Both the position numbers and the translations under genes were made by a program. A stretch of 40,579 bases of DNA, taken from Bacteroidota bacterium. GTDB lineage: Bacteria; Bacteroidota; Bacteroidia; Bacteroidales; F082. This document shows, piece after piece, positions 8,026-40,579 of the stretch. The stretch lies in assembly GCA_024280235.1 (NCBI GenBank), contig JAJRQN010000180.1, positions 1 through 40,579 on the forward strand. Direction: 5' to 3'. The notes under the pieces were generated by a model. It was given only the letters and a program-made list of their open reading frames with translations, ran no database searches and was not told where the DNA came from. Numbering within the stretch: position 1 is the first letter of the stretch; the number at the start of each line of letters is the position of its first letter.

Positions 8026-8045
8026 GTTGAAAAATTAAAACTAAA

Positions 8046-8069: not shown

Positions 8070-8077
8070 TTAATCTT

Positions 8078-21537: not shown

Positions 21538-21561
21538 CATCATATTTCAAAGCAACCAGGC

Positions 21562-24074: not shown

Positions 24075-24536
24075 ATGATGTTTTTTACAAAACCCACGGA
24101 ATACGCCATCAGAGCCATGGTCTATTTATCTATTCATGCCTCATCAGAGAATAAGCTGGGGATAAAACAAATTGCAGCCGATTTGGGATTTCCCGAACAC
24201 TATCTCGGAAAGGTTTTGCAGGATTTAGCAAAAAAACAAATTATCAAATCATCCAAAGGGCCACATGGCGGCTTTTATCTCGATGAAGCCGGCACAGACA
24301 TATCGCTGCTCTCATTGATAGATGCCATTGAAGGGTTACAGTTTTTCAACACCTGCGGATTGGGGCTACACGAATGCAACGAAGAAAAGCCCTGCCCTAT
24401 TCACAAAGAATACCAGATTGTAAAAGGAAATTTTTACAAAATTCTATCCGAAAAAACTATTCGCAGCATGCGCGATGACATTGAAAATGAGATTGCTTTT
24501 ATGGATTTTTATTCCCATCCTGCGGAAGCAAAATAA
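24075..24536 (+). CDS. Rrf2-family regulator with three cysteines (IscR/NsrR type)
   Basis: The 153 residues begin with the Rrf2 winged helix (T-E-Y-A-I-R-A-M-V-Y-L, then I-A-A-D-L-G-F-P-E-H-Y-L-G-K-V-L-Q-D-L). G-P-H-G-G-F follows, and a cluster loop with cysteines C94, C101 and C107 (C-x6-C-x5-C), close to the C-x5-C-x5-C of NsrR and IscR. Such proteins bind an Fe-S cluster and sense nitric oxide, redox state or cluster supply. The dyad just upstream may be its operator. The gene follows the DUF59 gene by 68 bases on the same strand. Which signal it senses cannot be told from sequence. Confidence 0.85.
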   Translation: MMFFTKPTEYAIRAMVYLSIHASSENKLGIKQIAADLGFPEHYLGKVLQDLAKKQIIKSSKGPHGGFYLDEAGTDISLLSLIDAIEGLQFFNTCGLGLHECNEEKPCPIHKEYQIVKGNFYKILSEKTIRSMRDDIENEIAFMDFYSHPAEAK

Positions 24537-25295: not shown

Positions 25296-25898
25296 CTATT
25301 TCCGTATGGCCTTCAGGTCAAAAGAAACACCGATACTGTCGCTGACGATAAAACTCTTGTCGCTAACAGCCTCATGTTGCGAATAGCTCGTAACTCCCCA
25401 CCGCAGGCGGTCGATGTAGAATTTTCCCGATTTTATTTCCAGCGTTTCTCCCTTCCGGATAATCTTTGCATGGAAAGTGATACAGACAGCTACTCCCATC
25501 AACTCCAAATCGCCCGTAACCTGAAATACATGATTGCCCAATGATTTGGCATTGTCAAGCAGAAACCGGGAATAAGGATATTTTTTTGTATTAAAAAAAA
25601 CGTCTGAACGCAGGATATTTTGTAAAGTCTCCCGCATCAAATCATACGTAATATCCTGATCGAACACGCTATCCATCTGAAAAAGAATATCGGCAGCAAC
25701 AAGTTTATCGTCAGTCATTTTCACACAACCCTCTTTCAGGTATATGTAACCGTGATGGATATTGCACGACCAGAAAAGCCGGCTCAGCGCAGTGTCGATC
25801 CTGTACTCTACGGTATCACCTTTTGCCGGCCCGGATGCAAAAAGCGAACCTGCCAACAGGATAGAAAGAGACAAATACAGGGTGAGTTTTTTTATCAT
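25296..25898 (-). CDS. YceI-like exported protein
   Basis: The 200 residues start with a signal peptide (about residues 1-27). A YceI-like beta barrel follows: S-R-L-F-W-S-C-N-I-H-H-G replaces the usual start, then F-D-Q-D-I, D-V-F-F-N-T-K-K-Y-P-Y-S-R-F and V-T-G-D-L-E-L-M-G-V. YceI proteins are periplasmic carriers of isoprenoid or amphiphilic ligands and often accompany respiratory or copper genes. Here it is the last gene of the long minus-strand run, 12 bases after the pentapeptide lipoprotein gene. Its specific ligand is unknown. Confidence 0.8.
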   Translation of the reverse strand: MIKKLTLYLSLSILLAGSLFASGPAKGDTVEYRIDTALSRLFWSCNIHHGYIYLKEGCVKMTDDKLVAADILFQMDSVFDQDITYDLMRETLQNILRSDVFFNTKKYPYSRFLLDNAKSLGNHVFQVTGDLELMGVAVCITFHAKIIRKGETLEIKSGKFYIDRLRWGVTSYSQHEAVSDKSFIVSDSIGVSFDLKAIRK

Positions 25899-25910
25899 AA
25901 CCTGTGCATT

Positions 25911-26852
25911 CTATTTATTTTTGCGTTCGGCAATCACACCGGTAATTTGTCCGTTTTTCAATAATTTTTGAAGTTCCGGAGGAATATTCTTCGCATTTGT
26001 AAAACGGGTGTTACGCATTTCGGCACCAAAAAAACTACATCCTTCCAAATCGGCACCGGTAAAATCAGTCTCCTGCAAATGCGCACCGCCTAAGTTTACA
26101 TTTCTGAGAACAGCCTGTTTAAAGCTGGCTCCTTCTAATCCGGCACCGGTAAAATCAGAATCAGTAAGATTGCAATAATCAAATTTGGAGTTGGACAGTA
26201 CGCCACGAATAAACCGTGTATGCACAGCCACCGAATGACTAAAATCGGCATGGGTAAACTCCACATCTTTCATCAAAGCATTGGTAAAATCACAATACTT
26301 CAACGAAGCCCTGTGTCCGGTCATACCGAACATATTAGCCCCTTGGAAATCGGAACTATCCAATCGGGAATCGGTAACATGGTCATGGAAAAGCTTGGCC
26401 TGACTGAAATTGCAACGGTAAAACAGTGAACGGTCGAAAAGTGTCCACCGGATATCCGCAGCGCGGAAGTCGGAATAGCTGAAATTTGTTTCACTGCATT
26501 TGGCAGAACGCATGCTGGCGCCTCTAAAGTCGCCATTCACCACATGAACGCCATTCCAGTAAACATTGTCAAGCATCGCCTTCCGGAAATCATCGCCATT
26601 TTGCGGAACAGGTTTAATACCCTTTGGCCGCACTTTACCATCAGGTAATAATGTTTTTTTGTTGACAATGCTGTCAATTTCATGCGGACTTAAAAAATTA
26701 GCCACCTTTTTAAAGGAAGAAGCATCCGGAGTTTTCAGTGTCTCAGACAAAGAATTCGCTTTGGTTTTGGTTTCCTTTTTGGCAGAATAATTACAAGCCA
26801 CAAATCCCGTGAGCAGAATAAATACTGTCGCTATTTGAAAAGTCAGTTTCAT
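25911..26852 (-). CDS. Pentapeptide-repeat lipoprotein
   Basis: The 313 residues begin with a lipoprotein signal (cysteine C20 in G-F-V-A-C), then ~65 polar residues. A long run of pentapeptide repeats, A(D/N)FxG-like, occupies about residues 85-290: G-D-F-R-G-A-S, S-D-F-R-A-A-D, S-D-F-Q-G-A-N, S-D-F-T-G-A-G, T-D-F-T-G-A-D-L-E-G. Such repeats form a right-handed quadrilateral beta-helix. The gene directly follows nosY (16 bases), where canonical clusters hold other nos genes. It may be a structural partner of the NosFY transporter. Confidence 0.85.
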   Translation of the reverse strand: MKLTFQIATVFILLTGFVACNYSAKKETKTKANSLSETLKTPDASSFKKVANFLSPHEIDSIVNKKTLLPDGKVRPKGIKPVPQNGDDFRKAMLDNVYWNGVHVVNGDFRGASMRSAKCSETNFSYSDFRAADIRWTLFDRSLFYRCNFSQAKLFHDHVTDSRLDSSDFQGANMFGMTGHRASLKYCDFTNALMKDVEFTHADFSHSVAVHTRFIRGVLSNSKFDYCNLTDSDFTGAGLEGASFKQAVLRNVNLGGAHLQETDFTGADLEGCSFFGAEMRNTRFTNAKNIPPELQKLLKNGQITGVIAERKNK

Positions 26853-26868
26853 ATTTTAAAAGTAAGGT

Positions 26869-27699
26869 TTAAATAATATCTTTCCGGTTAAACCGGCGGT
26901 TGCCCAACCATCCAAATAAAAAGCCGAGCAAAGCAGGATAAACCACAGAGAAAACTATAAAAACACCCCGGCTCACAGTATCCAGCACAAAGTAAGCTGC
27001 CGGCCCCATGACTGTCAGCTTGGGATCAAAAAGTACCAATACGCCAACACGGAAAACCTGCAAAGGATTGAGCATTCCCAGACCAATCACAAGGCTCGGA
27101 TTCATACGGAATTTAAGCATCATACCCATCAGCAACAAATCTATAAAAGCCACCAGCAACAGCCATAACACAAAAGCCGAGCTTACTGCCATTTCCTGCG
27201 AACGGGCATAAACCGAGATAAACATACCAATCCCGAGAAAACAGAACACCATGGCGGCAAGCAAAAAGCTGTACAAAGCAAACATGTCCCAGGGAATATC
27301 AAGGCTGGTAATAGTTCCCCAAATTACAGCGGCAAACAATGAGACAAACAACGGGATATAAATCACAATAAATTTGGCAATAAATTTCCCCCAGTAAAAA
27401 TTACTCAGCGACACCGGCAGCGAAAGCATGTACTCCATCACATTACTCTCTTTATCGCCCACAATGGAGCGCACCACCGTTATGAGCACGTAAATGGGAA
27501 TAATAACCATACAAACCTGCATAAAGGTAACCATCAGACGCCCCAATCCCACAAAGCCAATAATTTGAGTTTCGGTGATTCCCGAAACAAACATAAAAGC
27601 TACAAAACCGCCAAACAGGATACTGTATATCCAAAATCCTTTACTCCGGAGACTTTGGTTCAAATCCAAAACCAAAATCGACTTAAATCCTTTTGACAT
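26869..27699 (-). CDS. nosY: ABC transporter permease, NosY family
   Basis: The 276 residues have six membrane helices of the ABC-2/NosY type. V-R-S-I-V-G-D-K-E-S-N-V-M-E-Y-M-L-S-L-P-V-S follows the second helix, the usual coupling region, and an R-x-F-N-R-K-D end is present. With NosF it forms an ATP-driven envelope complex that in denitrifiers works with NosD in maturing the copper centre of N2O reductase. ATG 27699 is preferred; an upstream ATG at 27741 adds a short basic extension. The gene is part of the nosF-nosL-nosY run. Confidence 0.85.
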   Translation of the reverse strand: MSKGFKSILVLDLNQSLRSKGFWIYSILFGGFVAFMFVSGITETQIIGFVGLGRLMVTFMQVCMVIIPIYVLITVVRSIVGDKESNVMEYMLSLPVSLSNFYWGKFIAKFIVIYIPLFVSLFAAVIWGTITSLDIPWDMFALYSFLLAAMVFCFLGIGMFISVYARSQEMAVSSAFVLWLLLVAFIDLLLMGMMLKFRMNPSLVIGLGMLNPLQVFRVGVLVLFDPKLTVMGPAAYFVLDTVSRGVFIVFSVVYPALLGFLFGWLGNRRFNRKDII

Positions 27700-27773
27700 A
27701 ATCCTTCTCCTCTGTTTCTTTGGGATTAACCCAAAAAGCATTCTATATATTTAAACCAATAATTACCAAAAAA

Positions 27774-28271
27774 CTATTTTTTATTCTTTTTCATCCCCTT
27801 ACCCATCATTTTGTGCTTTTTGAGAAACTCCTCACGCATGGTTTTTCCTTCGTCAATACGTTTAAGCATCTGTTCATAAGTAAAGGTGGAATCGCCGGGC
27901 TGTGCCACGGCACTGTAGCCGTAACCCATAGGCGTGTGTTTTCCAAAAGTATAATAGGCTTTTGTTGCATCGAGCCATTTGTCTTTGTGCTGGCTGTCGC
28001 CTACCCAAATCTGTACTTTTTTTCCATCCACAAATTTTTTCCATTCGGGTCCTTTCATGTACTCATTTAAACATCCGATATCATCGAACCAAAGTACATC
28101 GCCATACGAATTAATAGCCTGTACTGCATACTGTTGATCGGCAATTCCCATTAAACACTGGGCACAAATATCACGATCGTAATTTACTTTCCGCGGGGAG
28201 TAATCAGGTGCGTGCGAACAAGAAACCAGCAGCATTAAAATAACCACCGGAATAAAAAGTAACTTTTTCAT
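27774..28271 (-). CDS. nosL: NosL copper-binding lipoprotein
   Basis: The 165 residues carry a lipoprotein signal (C18 after L-M-L-L-V-S) and the NosL metal site C-A-Q-C-L-M-G-I near residue 36. The conserved D-V-L-W-F-D-D-I-G-C-L and a Lys/Met-rich tail complete it. NosL binds Cu(I) and delivers it to N2O reductase, whose gene is not in this window. It lies 12 bases after nosF and 74 before nosY. Confidence 0.92.
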   Translation of the reverse strand: MKKLLFIPVVILMLLVSCSHAPDYSPRKVNYDRDICAQCLMGIADQQYAVQAINSYGDVLWFDDIGCLNEYMKGPEWKKFVDGKKVQIWVGDSQHKDKWLDATKAYYTFGKHTPMGYGYSAVAQPGDSTFTYEQMLKRIDEGKTMREEFLKKHKMMGKGMKKNKK

Positions 28272-28283
28272 AACTCACTATTT

Positions 28284-28970
28284 TTAAACGTTCATATTTT
28301 CTACCGGATACAATATCTTATCCAAAACAATTTGTCCGAAATCCATTTCTACCACACGGTTTACCAGTCCTTCTATTTCTGTCATACGGTGGCTGCTTAA
28401 AACAAGCAACGCTTCTTTGTTGTATTTACCGAGATAATCGAAAAATATTTCACGGGCTGCCGGGTCGAGATTGGCCGAAGGCTCATCCATAAGCAGTACG
28501 GTTGGTTTCTTCCCAAGAGCAAATGCCACGAGCAGCTTTTGTTTCATTCCACCGGAAAGTGCCACAAATGGTTTATTGTAACTATCCTTAATCTGCAGAC
28601 CAAGTTTCTCGGCAATATCCACATACTCTTCCTCGGGCACATTGCTCAAATCGGAAAAAAAGCGCAGCAGCTCTTTTACCGTAATTTTAAGCGGTGGCGG
28701 AATTTGCGGCACAAATCCCACCTCTTTTAAAATATCCACCCGTTGCTGACGGGGGTCTTTATCCAGCACTTTCAGTTGACCATCAAAAATATACTGCCCC
28801 AGAATACAGCGTATTAATGTGGTTTTGCCTGCGCCGTTCTGACCTACAAGAGCAATTCTGTCACCTTCGTTAAAGTCAACGGAAAGTTGTTTTAACACTT
28901 CCACTTTACCAAACGATTTCGATAACTTGATTGCCCTAATGACCGGTGTATTTTTTTTTATTTCTGTCAT
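28284..28970 (-). CDS. nosF: ABC transporter ATP-binding protein, NosF family
   Basis: The 228 residues carry Walker A G-Q-N-G-A-G-K-T-T, the signature L-S-G-G-M-K-Q-K, Walker B V-L-L-M-D-E-P-S-A-N-L-D and the switch histidine in L-S-S-H-R. It resembles NosF, the partner of NosY. The ATG at 28970 overlaps the NapH-type gene's stop (ATGA), which favours this start over the one at 28985. All ATPase residues are intact. Confidence 0.9.
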   Translation of the reverse strand: MTEIKKNTPVIRAIKLSKSFGKVEVLKQLSVDFNEGDRIALVGQNGAGKTTLIRCILGQYIFDGQLKVLDKDPRQQRVDILKEVGFVPQIPPPLKITVKELLRFFSDLSNVPEEEYVDIAEKLGLQIKDSYNKPFVALSGGMKQKLLVAFALGKKPTVLLMDEPSANLDPAAREIFFDYLGKYNKEALLVLSSHRMTEIEGLVNRVVEMDFGQIVLDKILYPVENMNV

Positions 28971-29899
28971 AAAATCTTGTCCCATCCTTTAACTGTATAA
29001 CTTAACGCATGTCCGGGGCAAACATCGATACAAAGTCCACACCGGGTACAGTCGGCACCCACATCGTGCCGTTTGCTGGTGGCTTTGCCTCGTTCGACAA
29101 ACCAGAGTTCATGCGGAACAAGGCACACATTCTGACAATCTAGACAATGGGCACATTTGTCCAGTTCGAATTTAACACCAAAAGGCGATAACTGCCCCAC
29201 CATACTGTAGGTAGCACCAATTGGACATACATAACGGCACCAGAAACGTTTGCTGTGAACAATTTCAAATGTAATCAGCAATAAAATCCACAAAAGGATC
29301 AGCCCCGGACCATATATCATTGCCCGCGAAATAATCCCCACCGGATTCAGGTCTTCAAACACAAGGTTTTGTGTAAAAAATGCCAGCAGCAGAAAACCTA
29401 CCCAAAAAACATAACGCAGATAACGGTTGTACGTATGTTCTTTGATTTTTTTCTTTTTCACAAGATAATTGTGCAATCTCTCACCCCATTCGGCCAAAAA
29501 ATGATATGGGCATATCCACGAGCAAAAGGTTCTTCCACCCATCAAAAAATAAAAAATGAATATGGTTCCGTCGCCAATTACAAAATTCATGGTCAGATGC
29601 ACCCAATGGCCCGTATAGAATGAAATAACCAATTGTTGTAATGTATTAAAAGGATCCATCAGGTAAAATCCGATCAGACGCGATCCGCTCAGGGAACCCT
29701 CAAGCATGGAAAGATCGAGCATAAACGACAGGATAAAAAGTCCGTTAATTCCTATGAGGACTGCCCAGCGGATGGTACGCCATTTGTGTCGTCCGCCGTA
29801 TTTTTCACGCCAGGCTTTAAAGCTCATACCTGCTTTTACATACGGCATTTCTTCTTTGGTCTTAGCCGGTATAGGCGTAGTATTCTTCTTTCCAAACAT
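28967..29899 (-). CDS. Polyferredoxin membrane protein, NapH/NosH type
   Basis: The 310 residues have four to five membrane helices and the NapH-type C-S-W-I-C-P-Y and C-R-Y-V-C-P-I-G motifs at helix ends. Two [4Fe-4S] ferredoxin motifs sit near the C-terminus (C-A-H-C-L-D-C-Q-N-V-C and C-T-R-C-G-L-C-I-D-V-C-P). Such proteins pass quinol electrons towards periplasmic reductases. It follows the NapG-type gene by one base and overlaps nosF by four, so the three are coupled. Confidence 0.88.
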   Translation of the reverse strand: MFGKKNTTPIPAKTKEEMPYVKAGMSFKAWREKYGGRHKWRTIRWAVLIGINGLFILSFMLDLSMLEGSLSGSRLIGFYLMDPFNTLQQLVISFYTGHWVHLTMNFVIGDGTIFIFYFLMGGRTFCSWICPYHFLAEWGERLHNYLVKKKKIKEHTYNRYLRYVFWVGFLLLAFFTQNLVFEDLNPVGIISRAMIYGPGLILLWILLLITFEIVHSKRFWCRYVCPIGATYSMVGQLSPFGVKFELDKCAHCLDCQNVCLVPHELWFVERGKATSKRHDVGADCTRCGLCIDVCPGHALSYTVKGWDKIL

Positions 29900-29900
29900 A

Positions 29901-30731
29901 TCACGAAGCAGTTAAAGGTTCAACAATAATGCTGGGTTCCTCCGTCGGACAAACCATCACACAAACACCACAGCCCACGCAACCATCGAGTACTTTGGGT
30001 TTGTAACCAACAGTTCCATCGGCACGGGTATGTTTATCCAAAACAATAGCCTCTTCGCCCATTGGACACTCTTTCACACAGATATCACATATTTTTTCAT
30101 CGTAATGTTTATCGCGCAAGGGAGTGGCTTTGGGTGAGTTTCCATACGGAGAGCGGTTAATCCCCTTAAAGTCGTTACCCCGAGGAGTTCCTTTAAACCC
30201 CTTGCCCAAAACCGCAAGACAGGTTTTATCGTTTACTTTGGCAACTCCCATCTTTACCTGCCTTTTCATGGCTTTTATTTGTACCGGAAAAGGATTGTAG
30301 TTGGCATCGATTTTATGCGTTTTATCATAGGCCTCAATAGCCTTTTCCCCGGCATTTTTAAAAGGAACAAAATACAAAGCTGCTGTAGGACAGGTTTCCA
30401 CACATTGGATAGAGTCACACGACAAGTCACAGGCTTGTTCACGGGCATCAATGTAAGGCGTTCCATAAGCCAGCCCATCTTTAATGCCTGCAAACTTTAT
30501 AGCTTTTACCGGGCAAATCTGAATACAAAGACCGCATTTTATACAGGCATATATAAAAGTAGTCTCTTCAATAGCTCCGGGAGGTCTTAAAAAATTTTGA
30601 TTTATCCGCTTTTCAGTGGTCACTTTTTGAAGGTAGCCCACCCCGGCCCCTACGGCTGCTAAAGCCCCAACAGCAATAGCGCTGGACTTCAGAAACTGAC
30701 GCCTATTGAGTCCGTCGGCTTGTCTTTTCAT
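29901..30731 (-). CDS. Periplasmic ferredoxin-type protein, NapG/NosG type, Tat-exported
   Basis: The 276 residues begin with a Tat signal (N-R-R-Q-F-L-K-S-S followed by an alanine-rich segment). Four [4Fe-4S] motifs follow: C-I-K-C-G-L-C-I-Q-I-C-P, C-D-L-S-C-D-S-I-Q-C-V-E-T-C-P, C-D-I-C-V-K-E-C-P and C-V-G-C-G-V-C-V-M-V-C-P. NapG-type proteins with NapH relay electrons from quinol. It is the first gene of the nos-like block and has a possible own promoter 52 bases upstream. Confidence 0.9.
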   Translation of the reverse strand: MKRQADGLNRRQFLKSSAIAVGALAAVGAGVGYLQKVTTEKRINQNFLRPPGAIEETTFIYACIKCGLCIQICPVKAIKFAGIKDGLAYGTPYIDAREQACDLSCDSIQCVETCPTAALYFVPFKNAGEKAIEAYDKTHKIDANYNPFPVQIKAMKRQVKMGVAKVNDKTCLAVLGKGFKGTPRGNDFKGINRSPYGNSPKATPLRDKHYDEKICDICVKECPMGEEAIVLDKHTRADGTVGYKPKVLDGCVGCGVCVMVCPTEEPSIIVEPLTAS

Positions 30732-30782
30732 ATCGACATCCTTTTAAAGTTTAAGTAAAATATTTGTACTAATAATATGCAC

Positions 30783-30790
30783 CAAATATA
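30783..30790 (-). promoter_or_regulatory. Possible internal promoter in front of the NapG-type gene
   Basis: The minus strand reads TATATTTG (TAnnTTTG) in the 73-bp gap between the activator and NapG-type genes. This is the widest gap in the run apart from those after the receptors and before nosY. No -33 TTG is found. It may let the nos-like block be expressed separately. Confidence 0.4.
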
Positions 30791-30804
30791 CATATTCTAA
30801 CTTC

Positions 30805-31608
30805 TTAAACACTTACTCTAATAAATTTTTTTAAGGCTATATGAGCAGAACCAATCGCTGTTGTGAATTGAGGATGCGGATGGATATGGATCTTACGCAT
30901 CAATTCATTTTCCAGTGCTTCAACCATTCCCTTGTTTAATGCCGTACCACCGTCAAACAACACATCATCTTCTATACGGCCACGTGCAGCCAGCCGGCTA
31001 ATACGCCGGGCAATCGAATAATGGATTCCTGAAACAATCTCATTCACATGATGACCTGCAGCGAGTAATGAAATAATTTCTGATTCGGCGAAAACGGCAC
31101 AGGTACTGTTTACAGGAAGCGGAGAATCCTTGGCTTCAAAATGGAGGCTTCCCATATCTATAATATCCACCTCCAGGTTTCTGGCAGCAATATCCAAAAA
31201 CCTTCCGGTACCGGCAGCACATTTATCATTCATGACAAAGTTCTTAATATCTCCATTTTCATCCAACAGGATTACTTTCGTATCCTGTCCTCCCACATTG
31301 ATGATGGTACGAATCTTTACCCCATCCTGTTGGAAAGCTCTTGCGCCTACAGCATTGGCCGTAAGCTCATTGACATTTTCATCACTGTCTTTAAACAGCT
31401 TTCGTCCGTAACCTGTTGAAACCGTATAAGCAATATCTTCCTTTTTGATGTTATTCCTGAACAATAACAAATCAAGGGCATCTACTGCATTCTGATTAAA
31501 CCGGCTTCCGGTGGGAGAAGCCCCCTTGGCAACCAATTCTTTCTCTTCGTTTATTATGGCAATTTTTATGGTTGTCGATCCAATATCTATTCCTACAAAA
31601 TACTTCAT
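30805..31608 (-). CDS. BadF/BcrAD-family ATPase, activator of a 2-hydroxyacyl-CoA-dehydratase-like protein
   Basis: The 267 residues have the ASKHA fold with G-I-D-I-G-S-T-T (7-13), N-V-G-G-Q-D-T-K and F-D-G-G-T-A-L-N-K. The cluster cysteines are C130 (N-D-K-C-A-A-G-T-G-R) and C170 (S-T-C-A-V-F-A-E-S-E), one from each monomer pair holding a shared [4Fe-4S] cluster. The activator uses ATP hydrolysis to push one electron at very low potential into its partner. The partner gene lies 13 bases upstream. No CoA transferase, acyl-CoA dehydrogenase or second dehydratase subunit is present, which points away from amino-acid fermentation. Confidence 0.9.
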   Translation of the reverse strand: MKYFVGIDIGSTTIKIAIINEEKELVAKGASPTGSRFNQNAVDALDLLLFRNNIKKEDIAYTVSTGYGRKLFKDSDENVNELTANAVGARAFQQDGVKIRTIINVGGQDTKVILLDENGDIKNFVMNDKCAAGTGRFLDIAARNLEVDIIDMGSLHFEAKDSPLPVNSTCAVFAESEIISLLAAGHHVNEIVSGIHYSIARRISRLAARGRIEDDVLFDGGTALNKGMVEALENELMRKIHIHPHPQFTTAIGSAHIALKKFIRVSV

Positions 31609-31621
31609 CTCTCTGCTCGGC

Positions 31622-32893
31622 TTATTTTTTATTTTTTAATGAATCCAGAAAAGCTTCCAGGCGGGTGGTGAGCTGGCCAAAATCGTCGGGGTTATAATCA
31701 GACTCGATAAACAGCGTAGAAATTCCCATGCTCTCCACAAAATTCCCAACCATTCTCGATTCCATGTCATACAACTGGCAACCGGAAAAGGTCTGATAAA
31801 TCACACCATCCACGGAAAAATCTTCAATCCCTTTGGCGATTTTCCTTTTCCTGTCGTTATTAGGTGTAAAATTGGGACAGGTACTGGGTTTCAGGTATCT
31901 GTCAGCAACAGCAGGAATCATGTCGTACAAAAACCACTCATCAACGGCTACCGTATCCCAGATCATACGACTGGTGGAACAAAACTCCTCATAAACCACC
32001 AGTCCTCCCAGCTCTTCTATCAAAACGGGGAGCTTCATATTGGGGAAAATACTGGGCGAACCCGTAAGCAAGATCCGGGGGGAATGCGGCTTGCCGACAT
32101 AAATTTTTTGTTCGATCCTTTTTTCAAGCTCATCGTTTAGTTCCGAAACCTTTTGTGTCCAGCGCTCAATATCATCGAAGAAATAGGCGTTGGTCACCAA
32201 AATGGCATCCTTACCATAAATCACAGGAGCCGTTTTTCGCAATTGATTAAACCGGCGATATTCGGCCTGGGCTTTGGCCACCATTTTGATTGCCCGTTTC
32301 AAACTTCTGCGGGTAATTTTATTTCCGGTAACCGATTCCAGTTTTTTCACAAACCTTTTTATCACCCTGTGCCAATAGCGTCGGGCTTCTTCGGTATCTT
32401 TTGTGGGAGGAACTTCCAGCAGATAAAGTGGTTTGGACAACTCCTCTCCCATTTCACCCATTTTTTTCTTCTGGTCACAGGTAGCAGGATTGACAATCAG
32501 CACCGGATCAATATTGCCGGGCAGAATATCAAGATAAATAGCGCCAAGAGTCGATTTCACCAGGGGACACGTCTTGGCCGGAAGAAATTCCGTACCTATT
32601 TGGTCCATGGCATAAGCACCGGCACAGATCCTGACAGGAACAGCTCCCACCGCATAGATCAACTCCAAAGGAACATGAATACACATGGAAGCAACAACTT
32701 TCTTTCCTTTAAAAGAGCTGTCATCGCCACTAAGAAAGTGTTCGTAACGGTCGTAAAAATATTGCATACTCTTGGGATTATCCGGAAATTTATCCACAAT
32801 CTCCGCAAGATTCTTTTTTATCTCCATGGAGTAATGAATACTCCCGGTTTTCCTCATTCGTTCAAAACGATCCTTGCTAACGCTATGCTGCAT
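31622..32893 (-). CDS. Stand-alone HgdB/HgdA-family protein, candidate double-cubane cluster reductase
   Basis: The 423 residues belong to the 2-hydroxyglutaryl-CoA dehydratase D family. Cysteines at 71, 90, 109 (P-A-K-T-C-P), 139 (N-P-A-T-C-D), 305, 339 (P-S-T-C-P) and 372 (F-S-G-C-Q) include the likely cluster ligands. True dehydratases need two different subunits and a CoA transferase; here there is only one such gene beside its activator. This matches the homodimeric double-cubane [8Fe-9S] proteins (relatives of E. coli YjiM/YjiL), which reduce small molecules with ATP. The substrate is unknown. It is two bases downstream of a polyferredoxin gene, a plausible electron source. Confidence 0.82.
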   Translation of the reverse strand: MQHSVSKDRFERMRKTGSIHYSMEIKKNLAEIVDKFPDNPKSMQYFYDRYEHFLSGDDSSFKGKKVVASMCIHVPLELIYAVGAVPVRICAGAYAMDQIGTEFLPAKTCPLVKSTLGAIYLDILPGNIDPVLIVNPATCDQKKKMGEMGEELSKPLYLLEVPPTKDTEEARRYWHRVIKRFVKKLESVTGNKITRRSLKRAIKMVAKAQAEYRRFNQLRKTAPVIYGKDAILVTNAYFFDDIERWTQKVSELNDELEKRIEQKIYVGKPHSPRILLTGSPSIFPNMKLPVLIEELGGLVVYEEFCSTSRMIWDTVAVDEWFLYDMIPAVADRYLKPSTCPNFTPNNDRKRKIAKGIEDFSVDGVIYQTFSGCQLYDMESRMVGNFVESMGISTLFIESDYNPDDFGQLTTRLEAFLDSLKNKK

Positions 32894-32895
32894 AC

Positions 32896-33921
32896 TTATT
32901 TCTTTGAGTTTAATGGAGGCAACTCCTTGGAATCGCCATCCGGATTATAACGCTTAAAAAAGCCCTCTTCGGTAGAGCTAAATATCTTAAAATTAAATAC
33001 TTTAACATCAAGACAACCTTCTTCGGGACAAGCTTCCACACATTTAAAACACATCATACAGTTGTCAGTAACCACATTTACACTGGTGATGTCTTCGGCT
33101 ATGGAGAGAATTCCCATATCACATACCCGCGAACAGTTTCCGCAACGGGTACATTTATCACCCACCTTGGTCAGGCGCAAAATACCTATCCTGGAAAACA
33201 AATACTGCAAAGCACTCATGGGACAAAAGAAACAAAAGAAACGTTTTTTTACAAAAGATCCCACAAAAAACAAGGCCAACACAAGGATAGCCAGCGATGA
33301 CATGACTATGGTGGTGGTATTGGTAAAATTAATAAACATCTGCGACGTATCCCCCGAAAAGAGCGGCAGAATAATCCTGGCCGGACATATCTGGCAAAAC
33401 GGAGACATCATGTTGTGCGACACTTTGGGCAAACCAAAGAAAGAATTGGCTATGGCCAAAGGAATCAAAAAGAGCAATACCAACAATACATATTTTATCC
33501 AGCTTAATCTCTTAAAACTCCTTTCATCATAATTACTGAAACGAATCCCCAGACGATTTCTTAATTTGGTAATCCAATCCTGTATCGTCCCCAACGGACA
33601 CATAAATCCGCACCAGGCTTTATTAAAAAGGACAAAAAACAATACAAACGACCCAAGAGAAGTCAGAAACCCCAAACCACGCCAGCTAAACAAAGAAGAA
33701 AACGGGGTATGCATCTGATGCTGTACAGATATAAGGAAACAGGTTCCCGGACTGCCCGGATTATACGGACAGGCAAATGTCGGCAGATTTTGCCCGATAT
33801 GTATCAAAAAATAACTACCGTAAACAAATAGGATAAAAGTCAGAATCTGTACCCAGAACCTAAACCGGGAAACATTCGCATTATTTATCCATTTTCTGAT
33901 ATTATTCATCTTCGTTTTCAT
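32896..33921 (-). CDS. Second polyferredoxin membrane protein (NapH-like)
   Basis: About 340 residues carry several membrane helices and the helix-end motifs C-G-F-M-C-P-L-G and C-F-F-C-P-M-S-A-L. A membrane-embedded F-C-Q-I-C-P-A-R and the ferredoxin motifs C-T-R-C-G-N-C-S-R-V-C and C-M-M-C-F-K-C-V-E-A-C-P follow. It is distinct from the one at 28967 and is coupled to the HgdB-like gene (2-base gap), so it may be its membrane electron donor. It overlaps the previous gene by 20 bases from ATG 33921, or 8 from ATG 33909; the choice of start is open. Confidence 0.85.
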   Translation of the reverse strand: MKTKMNNIRKWINNANVSRFRFWVQILTFILFVYGSYFLIHIGQNLPTFACPYNPGSPGTCFLISVQHQMHTPFSSLFSWRGLGFLTSLGSFVLFFVLFNKAWCGFMCPLGTIQDWITKLRNRLGIRFSNYDERSFKRLSWIKYVLLVLLFLIPLAIANSFFGLPKVSHNMMSPFCQICPARIILPLFSGDTSQMFINFTNTTTIVMSSLAILVLALFFVGSFVKKRFFCFFCPMSALQYLFSRIGILRLTKVGDKCTRCGNCSRVCDMGILSIAEDITSVNVVTDNCMMCFKCVEACPEEGCLDVKVFNFKIFSSTEEGFFKRYNPDGDSKELPPLNSKK

Positions 33922-34918
33922 CAAAAATATATTCTTTATAAGGTTTTTTTCTTCTCTCCCGGAAAATGGCTATCCCGGCAACAATAACAATCAACGAAAC
34001 TACAAAAACTATTAAGGACCAAACCAATGACGTATACATGGTTCTGGACGGAAAATAACCATCGGAAAGGGAAGTGGAATAATGGACATACCGGTAATCC
34101 TGTCCCTGAAATTTTCCGGATTTGTCAGTAGTAAATTCCGAATAAATCAGGTAATAATAAATTTTCCTGCGGTTCATCTCACTCCAATGGGTAAAATAAT
34201 CCTGAATGAACTGAAATTCAGCCTTGCCCGTTTTATCTGTACTTTCTTTTTTACTCCAGCCTTTTTCTGTACAAAGAGTAACAGGTATGCCCGGCACAGG
34301 TTTACCATTCAGCATAGGCTTATACGTAAACCGGTCGCCCGAAGCAATGAAAAAGTGAAAATCCTCATTCAGGTGTCGTTCTCTCACAATTTCAAAAGTA
34401 ATAACCTCAGGATATATTTTGGGTTTTACCTCTTTTCTCACATTCTTATGTCCGTTACGGCAACTGTGGCTAAGCAGTTCCGCCTTGGCGACATCAACAT
34501 ATAAGGTATCGCCCGACACCCTTTTCATCACGAGATAAACATTGTAATAACCTTCCTCATTATCAGGGTATTCCACAACACTTTTACCTTTGATATTAAT
34601 TACTTTCGACCTCACTTTTTTCTTGTGGGGCGAAAAAACAAAAGTACGGTAACCGGCTGTATCGGAAAGGAAAAGGTACCGGGCATGTTCTACGGAAGCC
34701 CCCTCACGAACCCATTGAATAACTTTAATTGCCCCTCTTTCACCCCTCTTTCTTTTTGTAGTACAAAGCCGATGCATCCCATACGAAGAAACTGATTTTT
34801 TCAGATGGGCAGGCGGCACATTAGACAGCCATACAGGTTTATCGGATGCCCTCATATCTGCGGAGGCAAGTAAAATGGCTAAAAAGAAATACCAAAAGAG
34901 CCGGGTGGAATTCTTCAT
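33902..34918 (-). CDS. DUF4198-like periplasmic domain protein with C-terminal membrane anchor
   Basis: The 338 residues have a signal peptide (1-24), a large periplasmic part, one membrane helix (about 295-320) and a short acidic tail. The segment F-T-Y-K-P-M-L-N-G-K-P-V-P-G-I-P-V-T-L and the following D-K-T-G-K-A-E-F resemble the DUF4198/NikM-type beta domain seen with metal uptake systems and TonB receptors. Its place between a TonB receptor and a polyferredoxin fits an envelope metal-handling role. The assignment is moderate and rests on this domain pattern. Confidence 0.6.
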   Translation of the reverse strand: MKNSTRLFWYFFLAILLASADMRASDKPVWLSNVPPAHLKKSVSSYGMHRLCTTKRKRGERGAIKVIQWVREGASVEHARYLFLSDTAGYRTFVFSPHKKKVRSKVINIKGKSVVEYPDNEEGYYNVYLVMKRVSGDTLYVDVAKAELLSHSCRNGHKNVRKEVKPKIYPEVITFEIVRERHLNEDFHFFIASGDRFTYKPMLNGKPVPGIPVTLCTEKGWSKKESTDKTGKAEFQFIQDYFTHWSEMNRRKIYYYLIYSEFTTDKSGKFQGQDYRYVHYSTSLSDGYFPSRTMYTSLVWSLIVFVVSLIVIVAGIAIFRERRKKPYKEYIFDENEDE

Positions 34919-35013
34919 TGTCTTATAAATTAATCGTTAAGCCTAAAAATTATCAGATGCAAACCCCTTGTGCAACCAGGCACAAAAGGTTTACCCTTGA
35001 ATAACATTTCCTG

Positions 35014-37284
35014 TTAAAAGTGATAGCCTACAGTAAATACCACATTGATGGGCCAACCCGGTGAATAATACTGATACCATGTGTACTGGTGTGTATGATA
35101 ATTGTAAGATTTGTTGGCATAAGCCCAGGTAGCGTAGTTAACATCAAAAACGTTATTTACAGCAAGAGAAGCCGTAAGCCGCTTTATTTTGTACATAATT
35201 TTGGCATTTACCATAGAGTATCCCGGATACATAACATGCTCATAATTATCCATGTAGTATTCACCCATAAACTGGTAATTTATTGTCAGGCTCAAGCCAA
35301 AATCAAAGGAATAGGTTGCCCCGGCCGATACCATGTTATGCGGTGTTTTTCGCAGTTGGTTTCCAACCAACGTGCTATCCGGATTATCAATAAATGTTGC
35401 ATTGAGATAAGAATAAGCAAGAAAAACATTAAAGTTTTTCTTCAACTGATAGTTCAACGACAACTCAACGCCGTCATGGCGGGTATTTCCAATATTAATA
35501 TAGGTAGCCGGATAACCGTCGGAAACAATCTGATCAGTAAAATCCATACGGAAAACAGAAAGCTGATAATGCAAAGCATTTTTTAAGAAGCTACCTCTGA
35601 CACCCAACTCGTAGTTTGTCAGGTATTCCGGTTTCAGGTCAGGATTGGGAATTACCCAGGTACTTGTAAACAACTGGGAAATCTGGGGAGGATTAAATCC
35701 TCTGGATATATTTCCGAAAACGGTGAGGTTTTCCATCGGATTATAAGCAAATCCGAATTTCGGGCTAAAGTTTGTCAGGCTTGAATTGGCAGTAGTATTA
35801 TCATCTCCCGTATGAAAATTATCCTGCCAGTCGTAACCAATGTAATCGTACCGTAAACCTAAAGACAAATCAAGCCGTTCCTGAAACAGGCTCACCCGGT
35901 CTTCGGCATACACGCCCACCATATCGTAGGTACTTTTTCCGGCATCTGTCAGCTCGCCCACGACGCCAGTTTCCCCATCTCGTGCATAAGTATGGTTATC
36001 GTCGGTTTGGCGGTCGGCACTCATCCCGACAACCATCGAATTTTTTATACCGGAAAACCTGGAGACCAGTTTATAACGCACTTCTCCACCGTACATCCTT
36101 ACATTGTCTTTTCCCCATTTGGTATCAAGGTAATGTCCTGTTGTGTTTCTGCCACTGTAATAAGTGTTTACAAACAAATCGCTGTTCGTGCCAAACTGCT
36201 TATCATAGTGCAGGTTAAAACGATAGATTTCATTCGTCCAGCCGGTAAAATTTCGTGTAGCTTCACGTGAACGTTGTACAAACTGAAGACTATCAAGGGG
36301 GCCTCCGCTTTGGGAAGTGTCTTTGGTATAATCTCCGGTAAACTGGAATTTACCAGCTTTCCCCAGATCTTCAATAAGCTTGATACCGGCACGTCCTGAT
36401 GTATATTCGGTACGGTCCTGGTAGCCATCGGTATGGTAATATCCACCTTTCATAAGGTAACGGAATTTACCCTTTCCGCCATTAACATTACCACTAAACT
36501 TTTGATAGTTATATGAGCCGTATGCACCCGAGAAATCGCCATGAAAGCCCTCCTTCGGACTTTTTTCAATAATATTGATAACTCCCGTAATGCCATTGGG
36601 ACCGTACAAAGCAGAAACAGGCCCTTTTAGCACTTCAATTTTTTCGGCATGGTCCATATCCACCCCTTCAAACAGGGTTCTTCCGGAAGCCTCTGTGATC
36701 GGTACACCATCAACCAACACCAAAATACCACGGGTAATATAAGTATGTAAACCCACTCCCCTGAAACTAATCACATTCGCCTCACCATGACGACGGTCTT
36801 CGGTAAATACGCCAGGAATCGACAACATGGCTTCTCCGACATTTCTTCTTTCAGTAGTCAGGTCCAACGACTTTTTACTAATAACATACACCGGAGAACT
36901 CACCGTTCTGACCGTTTGAGGAATTTTGGTTGCCGAGATTTCCACTTCGTTAAAAGTAATGGAAGTCATTTCCATTTTGATATTTAAAGTGGTAGTCTCT
37001 CCGGCCTTCACCTGTACATCTTCAATGTGTTTCGGGGTATAACCTAAAAGCCTGGCTTCTACAGTATAATTGCCAGCCGGAACATTTTTAAGGACAAAAT
37101 TACCCTGGCTATCACTCACACCACCAGTTTTTAAATGATGGATATAAACTTCTACATGCTGAAGCGGTTTTCCTGTTTTCTGATCTTTTACGGTTCCGCT
37201 AATTATTCCTGCATTTTGCGCTATTATACCATTCGATACAAAAAGGAACAATCCTGCAATCATAATTTTATAAAATACCTTCAT
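35014..37284 (-). CDS. TonB-dependent receptor with N-terminal carboxypeptidase-regulatory-like domain
   Basis: The 756 residues have a signal peptide, a carboxypeptidase-regulatory-like domain (about 28-110), a plug (about 120-240, with V-L-V-D-G-V-P-I and V-L-K-G-P-V-S-A-L-Y-G-P) and a barrel ending in an aromatic residue (G-Y-H-F). A loop near the end is rich in His and Tyr (Y-N-Y-H-T-H-Q-Y-T-W-Y-Q-Y-Y). The substrate class is not evident: no SusD partner follows, so glycan import is unlikely. It leads the run of metal and redox genes 95 bases downstream. Confidence 0.9.
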   Translation of the reverse strand: MKVFYKIMIAGLFLFVSNGIIAQNAGIISGTVKDQKTGKPLQHVEVYIHHLKTGGVSDSQGNFVLKNVPAGNYTVEARLLGYTPKHIEDVQVKAGETTTLNIKMEMTSITFNEVEISATKIPQTVRTVSSPVYVISKKSLDLTTERRNVGEAMLSIPGVFTEDRRHGEANVISFRGVGLHTYITRGILVLVDGVPITEASGRTLFEGVDMDHAEKIEVLKGPVSALYGPNGITGVINIIEKSPKEGFHGDFSGAYGSYNYQKFSGNVNGGKGKFRYLMKGGYYHTDGYQDRTEYTSGRAGIKLIEDLGKAGKFQFTGDYTKDTSQSGGPLDSLQFVQRSREATRNFTGWTNEIYRFNLHYDKQFGTNSDLFVNTYYSGRNTTGHYLDTKWGKDNVRMYGGEVRYKLVSRFSGIKNSMVVGMSADRQTDDNHTYARDGETGVVGELTDAGKSTYDMVGVYAEDRVSLFQERLDLSLGLRYDYIGYDWQDNFHTGDDNTTANSSLTNFSPKFGFAYNPMENLTVFGNISRGFNPPQISQLFTSTWVIPNPDLKPEYLTNYELGVRGSFLKNALHYQLSVFRMDFTDQIVSDGYPATYINIGNTRHDGVELSLNYQLKKNFNVFLAYSYLNATFIDNPDSTLVGNQLRKTPHNMVSAGATYSFDFGLSLTINYQFMGEYYMDNYEHVMYPGYSMVNAKIMYKIKRLTASLAVNNVFDVNYATWAYANKSYNYHTHQYTWYQYYSPGWPINVVFTVGYHF

Positions 37285-37451: not shown

Positions 37452-39530
37452 TTAAAATAAAAACTTTACTCCAACATTGAAACTGACTCCCGGCTCGTAG
37501 TACAAGCTGGAAATGTCCATGTTTTTGTAGGGTCTGCTTAAATGCTCTACGTAATTTTTGTTGAAAATGTTGGTTACCGACGCCCGGACTTCCATAAATT
37601 TAGCTACATGATAGTTGAAATACCAGTCAAATACGGTATAACCCGGCGTAGAGGATTCATTAAAGGTTTCGGAAACCCTGTTCTGTGCCGAGGCCATTCG
37701 CACATTCAAACGGGTATTGAGTTTATCTGTTTTGTAAATCAGACTTGTTACGGCAGCAAAGGGAGGTATTTCAGGCAACGGCTCATCCCAGGTTTTGTTT
37801 TGGGCATAGGTGTACGAAGCAGACACATCGTATATGAAATGTTTGGCAAACCGCCAGGTAATCCCCGCTTCAAAACCCGTTTTAAAAGCGTTGTCGATAT
37901 TGGTAAATCTTTTGGTATATTTGGGTAATTTACACGGCATAAATTTCCGCGGAATGGTTGTATCCACCCGGGCAGTAATATAATCCTGCAAAAAGGAGAC
38001 AAACACATCGCCAAAAACATGCACTTGCTTCCACTGCTTTTCAAACCGTAAATCGGTCTGGTAATTGATTTCGGGTTTCAGGTTGGGGTTTCCCACATAT
38101 TCGTAGGCATCCATTCCCACGCTCAAATGGTTTATGAAGAGCTCTCCTAAATCGGGGGTTCGCACGGCACGTGCGGTGGAAAGCTGTAACAATAAACCAT
38201 GTGAGGGGCGCCAGGAAAGGCTGGTGGTCATTTCAGGAACAAACCGGCTATCGGGTTTAATATTGTTCTTGTACAAGTTGGCAAAATCAGTTTCAGGATC
38301 GTTTATGGCATATGAAACCTGGTCGAGCCGCAATCCTACCAGCCAGTCCACATGAGTCCCCAATGAAAATTTATTCTCTAAAAACAATCCAAAATCATTC
38401 TTTTGCGAATCCTGCCACACCTTATCATAAAACGTTTTAGGTTTGGGCAGTACCACGCCCGTACAGCTATTTACATATACAACTCTTTCGCGGGAGCCAT
38501 CTTTACCCACATGCAGGAAATCAACTCCGGCATACAGGATGTTTCTTGCTCCGGTACTGATTCCCAGTTCCATACGTCCTCCGAAAGTACGCGCTTCCAC
38601 GGGGGTCTTTGAATGAGTGGCTTTATAACTTGGACGTCTTTTGTTTGTCATTAAATGGCTAACATAGGCTCCGTAAACTTTTACTTTTAAAGAAAAGAGA
38701 GATTCCGAAAGATTTTTAATACCATAATCGACCGACAGGATGCTGCTGTTGTCTTCGTCGGCATCCATGGGGAGTCCGGCATAGAGGACATCACGGGCAA
38801 AGCTTTGCCGCCAGGTAGCCTGAATCCGTTGTTTTTGGGTAAGATTAATCCCCAGTCTCGTGGTATATCCGCTACGCTTAAAAGAAGAGGCAATGGTTTC
38901 ACCCGAACCGCTTTTGTAGTTCCCATAATTTTTGTATCCGGCATTCACCGAAAAATCATATTTCTTTTTCACAATTTGCGCAAACAAATCGGTATAAAAA
39001 TTGTTTCCGTTGGTTTGATACCCTCCATCTACCGAACCTGAAAACACTTTTCCCCGGTAAACAGGACGCTTGCTCACCACATTGACCACGCCGCCAAAAA
39101 CAGGCCCAAAGCGCACACTATAAGGCCCGTAAATTACTTCCACTCTTTCAATATCTTCGACAGAGATTTGTGAAATAGCAGGGTCCATACGATTTGGACA
39201 GGCATTACTACTGTGAACACCTCCGTCAAACTGAACATTGAGCTGTTCGTATTTGAATCCGCGCAATACGGGTTCCATGCCGTAATTTCCTTTTTTTAAC
39301 ACCCCGAAACCGGGCTGGTTGATAAAAATCTCCCCCCCATCGTGGATATTTTGTAATTCTAATATTTTTCCGTTAATGTCTTTACGGTTTATCTCTTTGG
39401 CTTTGTTTCCCGTAATCAGAATTTCTTCCAGGTTAAGCGTATCGGAAGGCGATAGTGCCATTTGTGCTCCGGCAGTAAAAACTACCAAAAACATAATGAC
39501 AGTTAATAAAATATTTTTAAAATGTATCAT
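37452..39530 (-). CDS. TonB-dependent copper receptor, OprC/NosA type
   Basis: The 692 residues have a signal peptide (1-22), plug and 22-strand barrel. The plug carries N-A-C-P-N-R-M-D-P: C111 and M115 form the CxxxM copper site of OprC/NosA. The barrel part has S-H-L-M (H292, M294), the HxM second half of that site. Such receptors import copper across the outer membrane and supply N2O reductase in denitrifiers. This fits NosL and NosF/NosY further along the strand. The start at ATG 39530 is followed by a good signal peptide. Confidence 0.88.
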   Translation of the reverse strand: MIHFKNILLTVIMFLVVFTAGAQMALSPSDTLNLEEILITGNKAKEINRKDINGKILELQNIHDGGEIFINQPGFGVLKKGNYGMEPVLRGFKYEQLNVQFDGGVHSSNACPNRMDPAISQISVEDIERVEVIYGPYSVRFGPVFGGVVNVVSKRPVYRGKVFSGSVDGGYQTNGNNFYTDLFAQIVKKKYDFSVNAGYKNYGNYKSGSGETIASSFKRSGYTTRLGINLTQKQRIQATWRQSFARDVLYAGLPMDADEDNSSILSVDYGIKNLSESLFSLKVKVYGAYVSHLMTNKRRPSYKATHSKTPVEARTFGGRMELGISTGARNILYAGVDFLHVGKDGSRERVVYVNSCTGVVLPKPKTFYDKVWQDSQKNDFGLFLENKFSLGTHVDWLVGLRLDQVSYAINDPETDFANLYKNNIKPDSRFVPEMTTSLSWRPSHGLLLQLSTARAVRTPDLGELFINHLSVGMDAYEYVGNPNLKPEINYQTDLRFEKQWKQVHVFGDVFVSFLQDYITARVDTTIPRKFMPCKLPKYTKRFTNIDNAFKTGFEAGITWRFAKHFIYDVSASYTYAQNKTWDEPLPEIPPFAAVTSLIYKTDKLNTRLNVRMASAQNRVSETFNESSTPGYTVFDWYFNYHVAKFMEVRASVTNIFNKNYVEHLSRPYKNMDISSLYYEPGVSFNVGVKFLF

Positions 39531-40028: not shown

Positions 40029-40433
40029 TTAAACCCGGTTAGGAGGCGGGATAAGGACTTTTAAATAACGCACAAGGGGTGTTTCGCAGTAAATACGAAA
40101 ATGTAAAGGAACACCCGATGTATGCAGAGCCAAATGAAAATTTCCGGAGACTATATACACCAGGTTATTGATTTCGTTGTTGGTGGAAGGGGGCGGGTTT
40201 TGATTCTTTTTGTCGGTATTGTTTTTATCGCCCGCGCTTTTCAACAAAGCGCTCAGATAGGCCATATCACCGGTTTTGGTATGATCGCCGTTAAAATACT
40301 TTTTTTGTTGGGTGTGCGAAGCATACTCATTTCCCGTTGAAAACAAATAATAATGCATAATGGGATAAGCCGGCAGTATTAAAAATGCCAGATATAAAAG
40401 CAAAAACGATATGGAAATCAGTTTCCGTACCAT
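40029..40433 (-). CDS. Small exported or membrane-anchored protein of unknown function
   Basis: The 134 residues begin with a hydrophobic helix (about 5-25), continue as a polar, Asn- and Lys-rich linker, and end with L-I-P-P-P-N-R-V. I recognise no domain. A small protein of this shape just upstream of a copper TonB receptor could be a periplasmic accessory, but this rests on position only. It has a -7 box only five bases upstream of the ATG. Confidence 0.55.
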   Translation of the reverse strand: MVRKLISISFLLLYLAFLILPAYPIMHYYLFSTGNEYASHTQQKKYFNGDHTKTGDMAYLSALLKSAGDKNNTDKKNQNPPPSTNNEINNLVYIVSGNFHLALHTSGVPLHFRIYCETPLVRYLKVLIPPPNRV

Positions 40434-40438
40434 ATAAA

Positions 40439-40446
40439 CAAAAGTA
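40439..40446 (-). promoter_or_regulatory. Bacteroidota -7 box almost at the start codon
   Basis: The minus strand reads TACTTTTG, ending five bases before the ATG at 40433. Transcription would start at or just inside the codon, so the message would be leaderless. Confidence 0.4.
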
Positions 40447-40486
40447 TAAAAAATGTAAACATATTCATATAAATACAGCTAAATTT

Positions 40487-40579
40487 TTAACGTACCGGTG
40501 TAAAAGTATCATTTTTAGGCCAACGAAAGATGGGCTTTTTATCTTTCAAAACAAATTTGGGTTTGGAAAAGGGAGCCAG
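40487..40579 (-). CDS. C-terminal end of a gene that enters from the right edge
   Basis: The last 30 codons before TAA at 40487-40489 read protein-like: L-A-P-F-S-K-P-K-F-V, then K-K-P-I-F-R-W-P-K-N-D-T-F-T-P-V-R. No family is recognisable. It lies upstream of the small exported protein in the same direction. The stretch between them (40447-40486) is short and AT-rich. Confidence 0.5.
   Translation of the reverse strand: MAPFSKPKFVLKDKKPIFRWPKNDTFTPVR

Follow-up and report, generated by a model that had tools for sequence, protein, structure and literature searches.

Extent and Gene Content of the Operon

The window analyzed here is a complete contig (C196) of 40,579 nt from a Bacteroidota genome, and a block of twelve ORFs on its minus strand (25296-37284) raises the question of what a reductase of the double-cubane type is doing among nos genes that seem to lack nosZ. 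The preliminary description took the block for one unit in which an HgdB-like protein and its activator were joined to a nosZ-less nos cassette, and which could reduce a small nitrogen compound or mature an unusual metalloenzyme. All twelve ORFs were confirmed in the order that it gave (Table 1), and the spacing, expected to be mostly 0-20 base gaps or overlaps, is indeed tight: 8 of the 11 junctions are overlaps or gaps of at most 16 bases and the remaining three are 95, 73, and 32 bases. Family matches were obtained for YceI, pentapeptide repeat, ABC-2 permease, NosL, ABC ATPase, NapH, activator, double-cubane protein, and TonB receptor, and the second half is a nos cassette as described; the NapG-like protein, the polyferredoxin, and the DUF4198-like protein scored below their cut-offs, the last of these being backed by its fold. 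A scan of promoters and terminators gave counts within one standard deviation of shuffled sequences (39 vs. 36.5 ± 5.3; 20 vs. 16.1 ± 4.3).

The block is neither a whole unit nor nosZ-less. Two other contigs of this genome, C151 and C170, begin with exactly the 141 bases that end the window; both finish with a further shared stretch of 141 bases, which opens contig C35, also of this genome. Along these three contigs the same strand continues with nosD, genes for a NosB-like protein and a cytochrome c, and two nosZ paralogues (nosZ-B and nosZ-A), with the start of nosZ-A located on C35. The block thus looks nosZ-less because the contig ends inside the operon; where the contigs of relatives reach far enough, nosZ likewise adjoins the nos half. 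The twelve genes are the tail (3' part) of a larger operon for respiration of the greenhouse gas N2O, with the order nosZ-A, nosZ-B, cytochrome c, NosB-like, nosD, 134-aa ORF, copper-type TonB receptor (TonB2), a five-gene module, nosG, nosH, nosF, nosL, nosY, pentapeptide, and yceI. The module (TonB1, DUF4198-like, polyferredoxin, double-cubane protein, activator) sits between TonB2 and nosG, and the same gene order is found in genome G401 (loci L011 and L092). Comparison with relatives assigns TonB2 and the 134-aa ORF to the nos operon.

Table 1. Features of the window that belong to the N2O-respiration operon
Feature	Position	Strand	Evidence and remarks
Contig overlap	40439..40579		141-base exact match; operon continues onto C151/C170
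134-aa ORF of nos operon	40029..40433	-	Without a Pfam match; in L092, L136, and L139 a weak counterpart lies between NosD and TonB2
TonB2, copper-type TonB receptor	37452..39530	-	Best NCBIfam TIGR01778 (TonB-copper), 232 bits, below cut-off 472
TonB1, siderophore-type receptor that opens the module	35014..37284	-	TIGR01783, 224.7 bits, cut-off 223.5
DUF4198-like membrane-anchored periplasmic protein	33902..34918	-	PF10670, 18.8 bits, below gathering cut-off 34; metal-carrier fold
NapH-like membrane polyferredoxin of module	32896..33924	-	Below family cut-off; TTG start
Double-cubane cluster reductase	31622..32893	-	NF040772, 354.6 bits, curated cut-off 350
ATP-driven activator of double-cubane protein	30805..31608	-	TIGR00241, 232 bits, cut-off 125
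NosG, NapG-type ferredoxin, TAT signal	29901..30731	-	NapG-like, below cut-off
NosH, NapH-type	28967..29899	-	TIGR02163, 247 bits, cut-off 213
NosF ABC ATPase	28284..28985	-	ABC ATPase family match
NosL copper chaperone	27774..28271	-	24.1 bits, cut-off 24
NosY	26869..27741	-	ABC-2 permease family match
Pentapeptide-repeat lipoprotein	25911..26852	-	Family match; conserved in split-nos operons
YceI-like, last gene of operon	25296..25898	-	YceI family match

The operon resembles the Campylobacterota (Wolinella-type) clade II nos cluster in its cytochrome-c NosZ, NosB-like protein, NosD, NosG, NosH, NosF, NosL, and NosY. When compared with the published Wolinella-type gene order, as excerpted from PMC6279868 (nosZ, B, D, G, C1, C2, H, F, Y, L), Z, a B-like gene, D, G, H, F, Y, and L are present here, and C1 and C2 were not recognized, without a profile search. 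TonB2, the pentapeptide protein, YceI, and the inserted module are extra. In that cluster, according to the same excerpt and to our alignment, a single NosZ has both copper sites, whereas here there are two proteins with one site each.

Two NosZ Paralogues with Complementary Copper Sites

NosZ-A retains the CuA ligands and has lost the CuZ histidines, while NosZ-B retains all seven CuZ histidines and has lost the CuA cysteines. This complementary loss was observed in 15 A/B pairs from 14 genomes, with open frames and invariant retained ligands. Among the other NosZ rows, 61 out of 61 that were fully evaluated carry both CuZ and CuA on one polypeptide (the comparison alignment held 65 rows; fragment L070 and rows L142, L143, and L166 were left out). 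Both centers on a single polypeptide, the arrangement required of a clade II N2O reductase, are thus found in neither member of the pair. Against the model for that enzyme (TIGR04246, cut-off 625), NosZ-B scored 672.7 bits, and NosZ-A scored 343 bits for a queried stretch that lacks its N-terminus. Identity to the intact Campylobacterota NosZ is 34.6% in the propeller and 68.8% in the cupredoxin domain for NosZ-A, and 58.0% and 28.2%, respectively, for NosZ-B (G489 and G506 omitted); in each protein the drop falls mainly on the domain that has lost its metal site, and the retained domains are slow-evolving. In a tree built by a quick method, with an outgroup that was not clean, a long-branch warning, and G489_A and two pieces of G506_B omitted, A and B each form one side of a branch (SH-aLRT 100) and the Campylobacterota NosZ are the nearest relatives of both. 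An AlphaFold model of NosZ-A was poor (pLDDT 55.5) and was discarded. No description of a split NosZ appeared among the papers listed in the literature searches.

On balance we favor the reading that NosZ-A and NosZ-B constitute an obligate two-subunit N2O reductase in which a duplication was followed by complementary losses, so that each subunit keeps one center only, CuA in one and CuZ in the other. Each dimer would have just one productive contact between CuA and CuZ, and in some lineages the enzyme would be coupled to an ATP-driven double-cubane metal-acquisition module. The two proteins would descend from a duplicated cytochrome-c NosZ and would act as a heteromer. Electrons would pass from the cytochrome c domains to the CuA of subunit A and then cross the interface to the CuZ of subunit B, the site of N2O reduction, and copper and sulfur would be supplied by NosD, NosF, NosY, NosL, and TonB2. 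In four genomes a cytochrome c is fused to NosZ-B, which is in keeping with this reading. In ordinary NosZ the CuA-to-CuZ contact runs between subunits; with CuA placed on A and CuZ on B, that contact would therefore become compulsory. The earlier suggestion of a small nitrogen compound as substrate of the entire unit found no support, and the idea that it matures an unusual metalloenzyme came close, but the unusual enzyme is the split NosZ encoded upstream. It counts against our overall reading that NosZ-A retains an entire propeller that has no known use and that TonB2 falls below the copper-receptor cut-off.

A different division of labor is conceivable, in which NosZ-B by itself is the N2O reductase, its own heme feeding CuZ directly, while NosZ-A would be no subunit and would carry electrons or handle copper instead. 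This would fit the TIGR04246 score of NosZ-B and the C-terminal cytochrome c that it carries. We consider it unlikely, however: A was found with B in 14 out of 14 genomes, adjacent on one contig in 12 of them, while in G506 and G701 the genes are fragmented or lie at the ends of contigs in a way compatible with adjacency, and NosZ-A, by sequence, keeps the NosZ fold together with an invariant CuA motif while the losses in the two proteins are complementary. NosZ-B without A was also sought among three long-frame Bacteroidota NosZ (G135, G388, and G329), all of which have CuA. It is very improbable that both members of the pair are decaying and non-functional and that another enzyme reduces N2O. 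One genome (G440) does encode an intact canonical NosZ alongside the pair, but the open frames and invariant ligands across the 15 pairs and the slow evolution of the retained domains speak against decay, as does the genome of the window, where the pair, in two alleles, accounts for all nos_propeller matches.

A Five-Gene Module within the nos Operon

The NCBIfam cut-off and the cysteine conservation identify the HgdB-like/activator pair as a predicted double-cubane reductase, in agreement with the preliminary description. The HgdB-like protein is homologous to the double-cubane cluster protein of Carboxydothermus hydrogenoformans (6eno/7yyl) across residues 59-420, where the cysteines of the two align, and here an activator gene lies alongside. 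Six of the seven conserved cysteines are present in 42 out of 42 sequences and C372 in 41 out of 42; the cluster ligands are among the aligned cysteines. The biological function of double-cubane proteins is described as unknown in the part of PMC11971306 consulted.

The five-gene module is conserved across phyla with its gene order kept. In the loci surveyed (limit 1500 bases, with the polyferredoxin of L049 just outside), the constant neighbors of the double-cubane protein are the polyferredoxin, the DUF4198-like protein, and a TonB receptor. The DUF4198-like protein has the fold of periplasmic metal carriers (Foldseek probability 1.00 to 9mhl, 9mhm, and 9gcb, which are Zcp and DUF4198 proteins), and this fold supports its label. 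In contrast to those proteins it misses the Pfam cut-off and has a C-terminal membrane anchor, no N-terminal His, and its own H-x-C-x3-H motif (HSCRNGH in this protein), which occurs in 16 out of 20 family members; a search of the family profile against PDB sequences gave nothing significant (best E 0.28). DUF4198 genes frequently adjoin TonB receptors, according to an extract of PMC12537917. The Campylobacterota counterpart in L037 is a Fer4_5-NosL-DUF4198 fusion. CrtA with PepSY_TM, a TonB copper receptor and a membrane reductase, likewise places outer-membrane metal-chelate uptake beside an inner-membrane redox protein (PMC12914433, in the portion available), but its reductase is of an unrelated family, whereas the protein found here is a cytoplasmic ATP-driven double-cubane protein.

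The two halves were found to be linked recurrently in a neighborhood survey of relatives, as the preliminary description had expected. It had also named conservation of the halves only separately, with nosZ always beside the nos half elsewhere, as a result that would speak against it, and this is largely the case since the module occurs alone across phyla and split-nos operons occur without it. In 14 of the 46 module carriers, many of them MAGs of unstated completeness, no nos_propeller match was present, and we rejected the notion that the module is exclusive to N2O reducers. Within the order, none of the 7 further genomes with a split-nos operon has the module (0/34 genomes overall; the window's own genome lies outside this set and was found separately by the same query, and an empty result with no positive in the set is weak), and a requirement of the module for split NosZ was rejected as well. 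The module and N2O reduction are therefore separable.

The metal-carrier fold and the NosL fusion suggest reductive metal acquisition, and we tentatively regard the module as a guest with that role, at somewhat less than even confidence. It would import a metal chelate via TonB1, the metal would bind on the DUF4198-like protein, and the polyferredoxin, activator, and double-cubane protein would use ATP to drive a reduction at low potential, releasing the metal or holding it in the reduced state. The location within the nos operon agrees with a role in providing copper in the absence of oxygen. Neither the TonB receptor nor the metal-carrier fold points to a particular metal. Instead of a metal chelate, the module may reduce a small molecule imported by TonB1, such as a nitrogen compound, a cyanide complex, or an acetylene-like inhibitor; acetylene, azide, and hydrazine are in vitro substrates of double-cubane proteins (PMC11971306, in part) and acetylene inhibits NosZ (excerpt of PMC13274427). 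Against this stand the metal-carrier fold of the DUF4198-like neighbor and the NosL fusion in L037, and small gases of this kind need no TonB receptor for uptake; we find this reading doubtful. We give about the same low credence to a chance neighborhood, in which the module and the nos operon would be functionally unrelated. Such an association would account for the split-nos operons that occur without the module and for the rarity of nos genes near it, which were seen in only 3 of the 23 loci with long flanks (L011, L014, and L037; a fourth, L020, with one NapG/NapH match, was not counted as nos), but 5 of the 12 Bacteroidota carriers have the module adjoining or inside a split-nos operon, in four arrangements.

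Implications

NosZ is described as the sole known enzyme for the conversion of N2O to N2 (PMC13122619, in the section consulted). If the split-enzyme proposal is true, the pair would be a natural enzyme with its copper centers on separate proteins, in which electron transfer between subunits could be examined separately from the way each center is assembled. Since NosZ-B passes the standard model without CuA, gene counts in surveys would record it as an ordinary NosZ. The conserved metal-linked neighborhood provides a concrete, testable hypothesis for the function of the double-cubane proteins.

Contig Junctions and the nos Operon

The nos cassette of the window (all of contig C196) was described preliminarily as lacking nosZ. 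This is not the case, since a nosZ pair lies on adjoining contigs of the same draft genome (275 contigs), reached via shared 141-base ends. C151 and C170 both begin with the exact 141 bases that end C196, and the last 141 bases common to these two form the start of C35; thus two alternative alleles, whose DNA is about 80% identical, link C196 to C35. Alleles with the same exact 141-base flanks could be strain variants, allele replacement or duplication. Each allele reads, on the minus strand, nosZ-A, nosZ-B, cytochrome c, a 261/262-aa membrane protein and NosD (PF05048, 124.6 bits in C151), and the start of nosZ-A lies on C35. The 261-aa protein has a 32% homologue after NosZ in a Campylobacterota cluster, at the expected place of NosB. 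The same gene order is found in genome G401 (loci L011 and L092), where nosZ lies on a contig of 168,857 bases.

Features located in the window and in other records
Feature	Record	Position	Strand	Remark
DUF1858/DUF2249, 436-aa membrane and SufT-like proteins	window	21535-24006	+	after nos operon end
Rrf2-family regulator	window	24075-24536	+	near operon end; 91.5 bits, cut-off 30
Double-cubane protein	window	31622-32893	-	module
TonB1	window	35014-37284	-	module
TonB2	window	37452-39530	-	copper-type receptor
134-aa ORF	window	40029-40433	-	
Alternative complex III-like genes	L057 (C35)	1682-9590	-	upstream of nosZ-A; from reading of ORFs only
NosZ-A with C-terminal extension	L138	3-2246		
DUF4198-like counterpart, Campylobacterota	L037	6321-9023		fused to Fer4_5 domains
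DUF4198-like counterpart, Campylobacterota	L043	6579-8906		fused to Fer4_5 domains

Complementary Copper Sites in NosZ-A and NosZ-B

Ligands were compared in 15 pairs from 14 genomes, the window's genome contributing two alleles. Its NosZ-B aligns seven CuZ positions with histidines of solved NosZ and its NosZ-A aligns with the solved CuA motif; in solved NosZ these residues are the metal ligands. NosZ-B keeps all seven CuZ histidines in 15/15 pairs (the G506 protein, in two pieces, included) and in all 15 the two cysteines of CuA, its methionine and the second of its histidines are gone. At the first CuA histidine a Tyr is aligned, but a His stands one residue earlier. NosZ-A keeps the CuA residues in 15/15 (in G489 only the C-terminal part is seen). 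Of the seven CuZ histidines, 12 of 14 NosZ-A have none and the other two (G401, G636) have one. Both copper sites are kept in all 61 fully evaluated rows of 65 other NosZ. NosZ of another Bacteroidota family (L140, L141, L144), about 40% identical to NosZ-A, also keeps both sites and is a possible outgroup for the duplication.

In these alignments, ligand loss accompanies domain-wide divergence. Against Campylobacterota NosZ, the propeller of NosZ-A is 34.6% identical and its cupredoxin domain 68.8%; the corresponding values for NosZ-B are 58.0% and 28.2%. The cupredoxin domain of NosZ-A (89.5%, 13 rows) is about as conserved as that of 12 intact Campylobacterota NosZ (89.3%). The propeller is the less conserved domain in 78/78 row pairs of NosZ-A, and the cupredoxin domain in 77/78 of NosZ-B. 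In a tree made by a quick method, with long-branch warnings, each paralogue forms one side of a branch (SH-aLRT 100), and both cluster with cytochrome-c NosZ, apart from ordinary Bacteroidota NosZ. NosZ-A occurs in 8 of 295 genomes of the order, with ordinary NosZ alone in 11 more; in the 395-genome phylum sample it is found in the window's genome only.

In ordinary NosZ, the CuZ of one subunit is faced by the CuA of the other. Beside the observed gene order, complementary ligands and domain-wise constraint, we infer that NosZ-A and NosZ-B would form a heteromer in which electrons would pass from cytochrome c to CuA of NosZ-A and then to CuZ of NosZ-B. A second cytochrome c (second CxxCH) fused to NosZ-B in four genomes (G397, G440, G489, G636) suggests that the small cytochrome c is the electron partner. 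After its CuA domain, NosZ-A carries a conserved extension of about 110 residues, predicted to be helical in an overall poor model, in the place where NosZ-B has cytochrome c. We found no split N2O reductase in the open-licence papers searched.

The Double-Cubane Module

All twelve ORFs of the preliminary description are present in the claimed order, and its double-cubane label was borne out by the NCBIfam model (354.6 bits, cut-off 350). Residues 59-420 of this protein align with a solved double-cubane protein, and its seven cysteines are each kept in at least 41 of 42 sequences, counting only frames over 350 aa. Four operons (L134, L135, L136, L139) run from NosD through TonB2 to NosG without the module, and in three (L090, L093, L094) NosG directly follows NosD; by gene order, therefore, the window and L011 carry the module as an insertion that separates TonB2 from NosG. 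The 134-aa ORF is also present in L136 and L139.

The module comprises TonB1, the DUF4198-like protein, a polyferredoxin, the double-cubane protein and its activator, all of them known families. Records titled Bacteroidota, Calditrichota, Gamma- and Betaproteobacteria, Campylobacterota and Desulfobulbaceae carry it on its own. Of the loci that could be tested for each gene, 41/42 have the polyferredoxin, 38/38 the DUF4198-like gene, 39/39 the activator and 30/31 an upstream TonB receptor. A split-type nos operon adjoins it in 5 of 12 Bacteroidota carriers, in four arrangements: the window, L011, L014, L047 and G440, the last counted from TonB1 and the DUF4198-like gene only, at a contig end (L094). 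Of the 12 Bacteroidota genomes with the module, 11 have NosZ (10 of 11 others plus the window's own) vs 129 of 395 in the phylum sample, a comparison of two different queries made without control for phylogeny. One of these 395 genomes, the window's own, has a double-cubane relative at E <= 1e-60.

The module could serve reduction of a small molecule, which we consider somewhat less likely, or reductive metal acquisition, which we tentatively favour because of four observations. The DUF4198-like protein gave a good model (pLDDT 87.2), which matched, in structure search, the Zn, Cu and Co forms of the periplasmic metal carrier Zcp and a DUF4198 protein that binds Ni. In Campylobacterota, its counterparts are fusions with Fer4_5 domains; the one in L037 includes NosL as well (58 bits, cut-off 24), whereas the one in L043 does not. 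H-x-C-x3-H is found in 16 of 20 aligned members, counted by eye. Copper-chelate receptors adjoin membrane reductases in known systems (PMC12914433). At L037 and L043, the module repeatedly has DsbD_2 and RND transporter genes as neighbours.

Flanking Genes and Nitrite Reduction

The DUF1858/DUF2249, membrane and SufT-like protein genes lie divergently beside nosZ-A in G506 (L133), and an Rrf2-family relative is near TonB2 in L014. For cytochrome c552, the window's genome gave a single weak match that exceeds the cut-off. Since this draft gave no match to cytochrome cd1 nitrite reductase and nothing over cut-off for Cu nitrite reductase (only the NosZ-A cupredoxin domain, below it), the organism, as far as its draft sequence indicates, may be a non-denitrifying N2O reducer.
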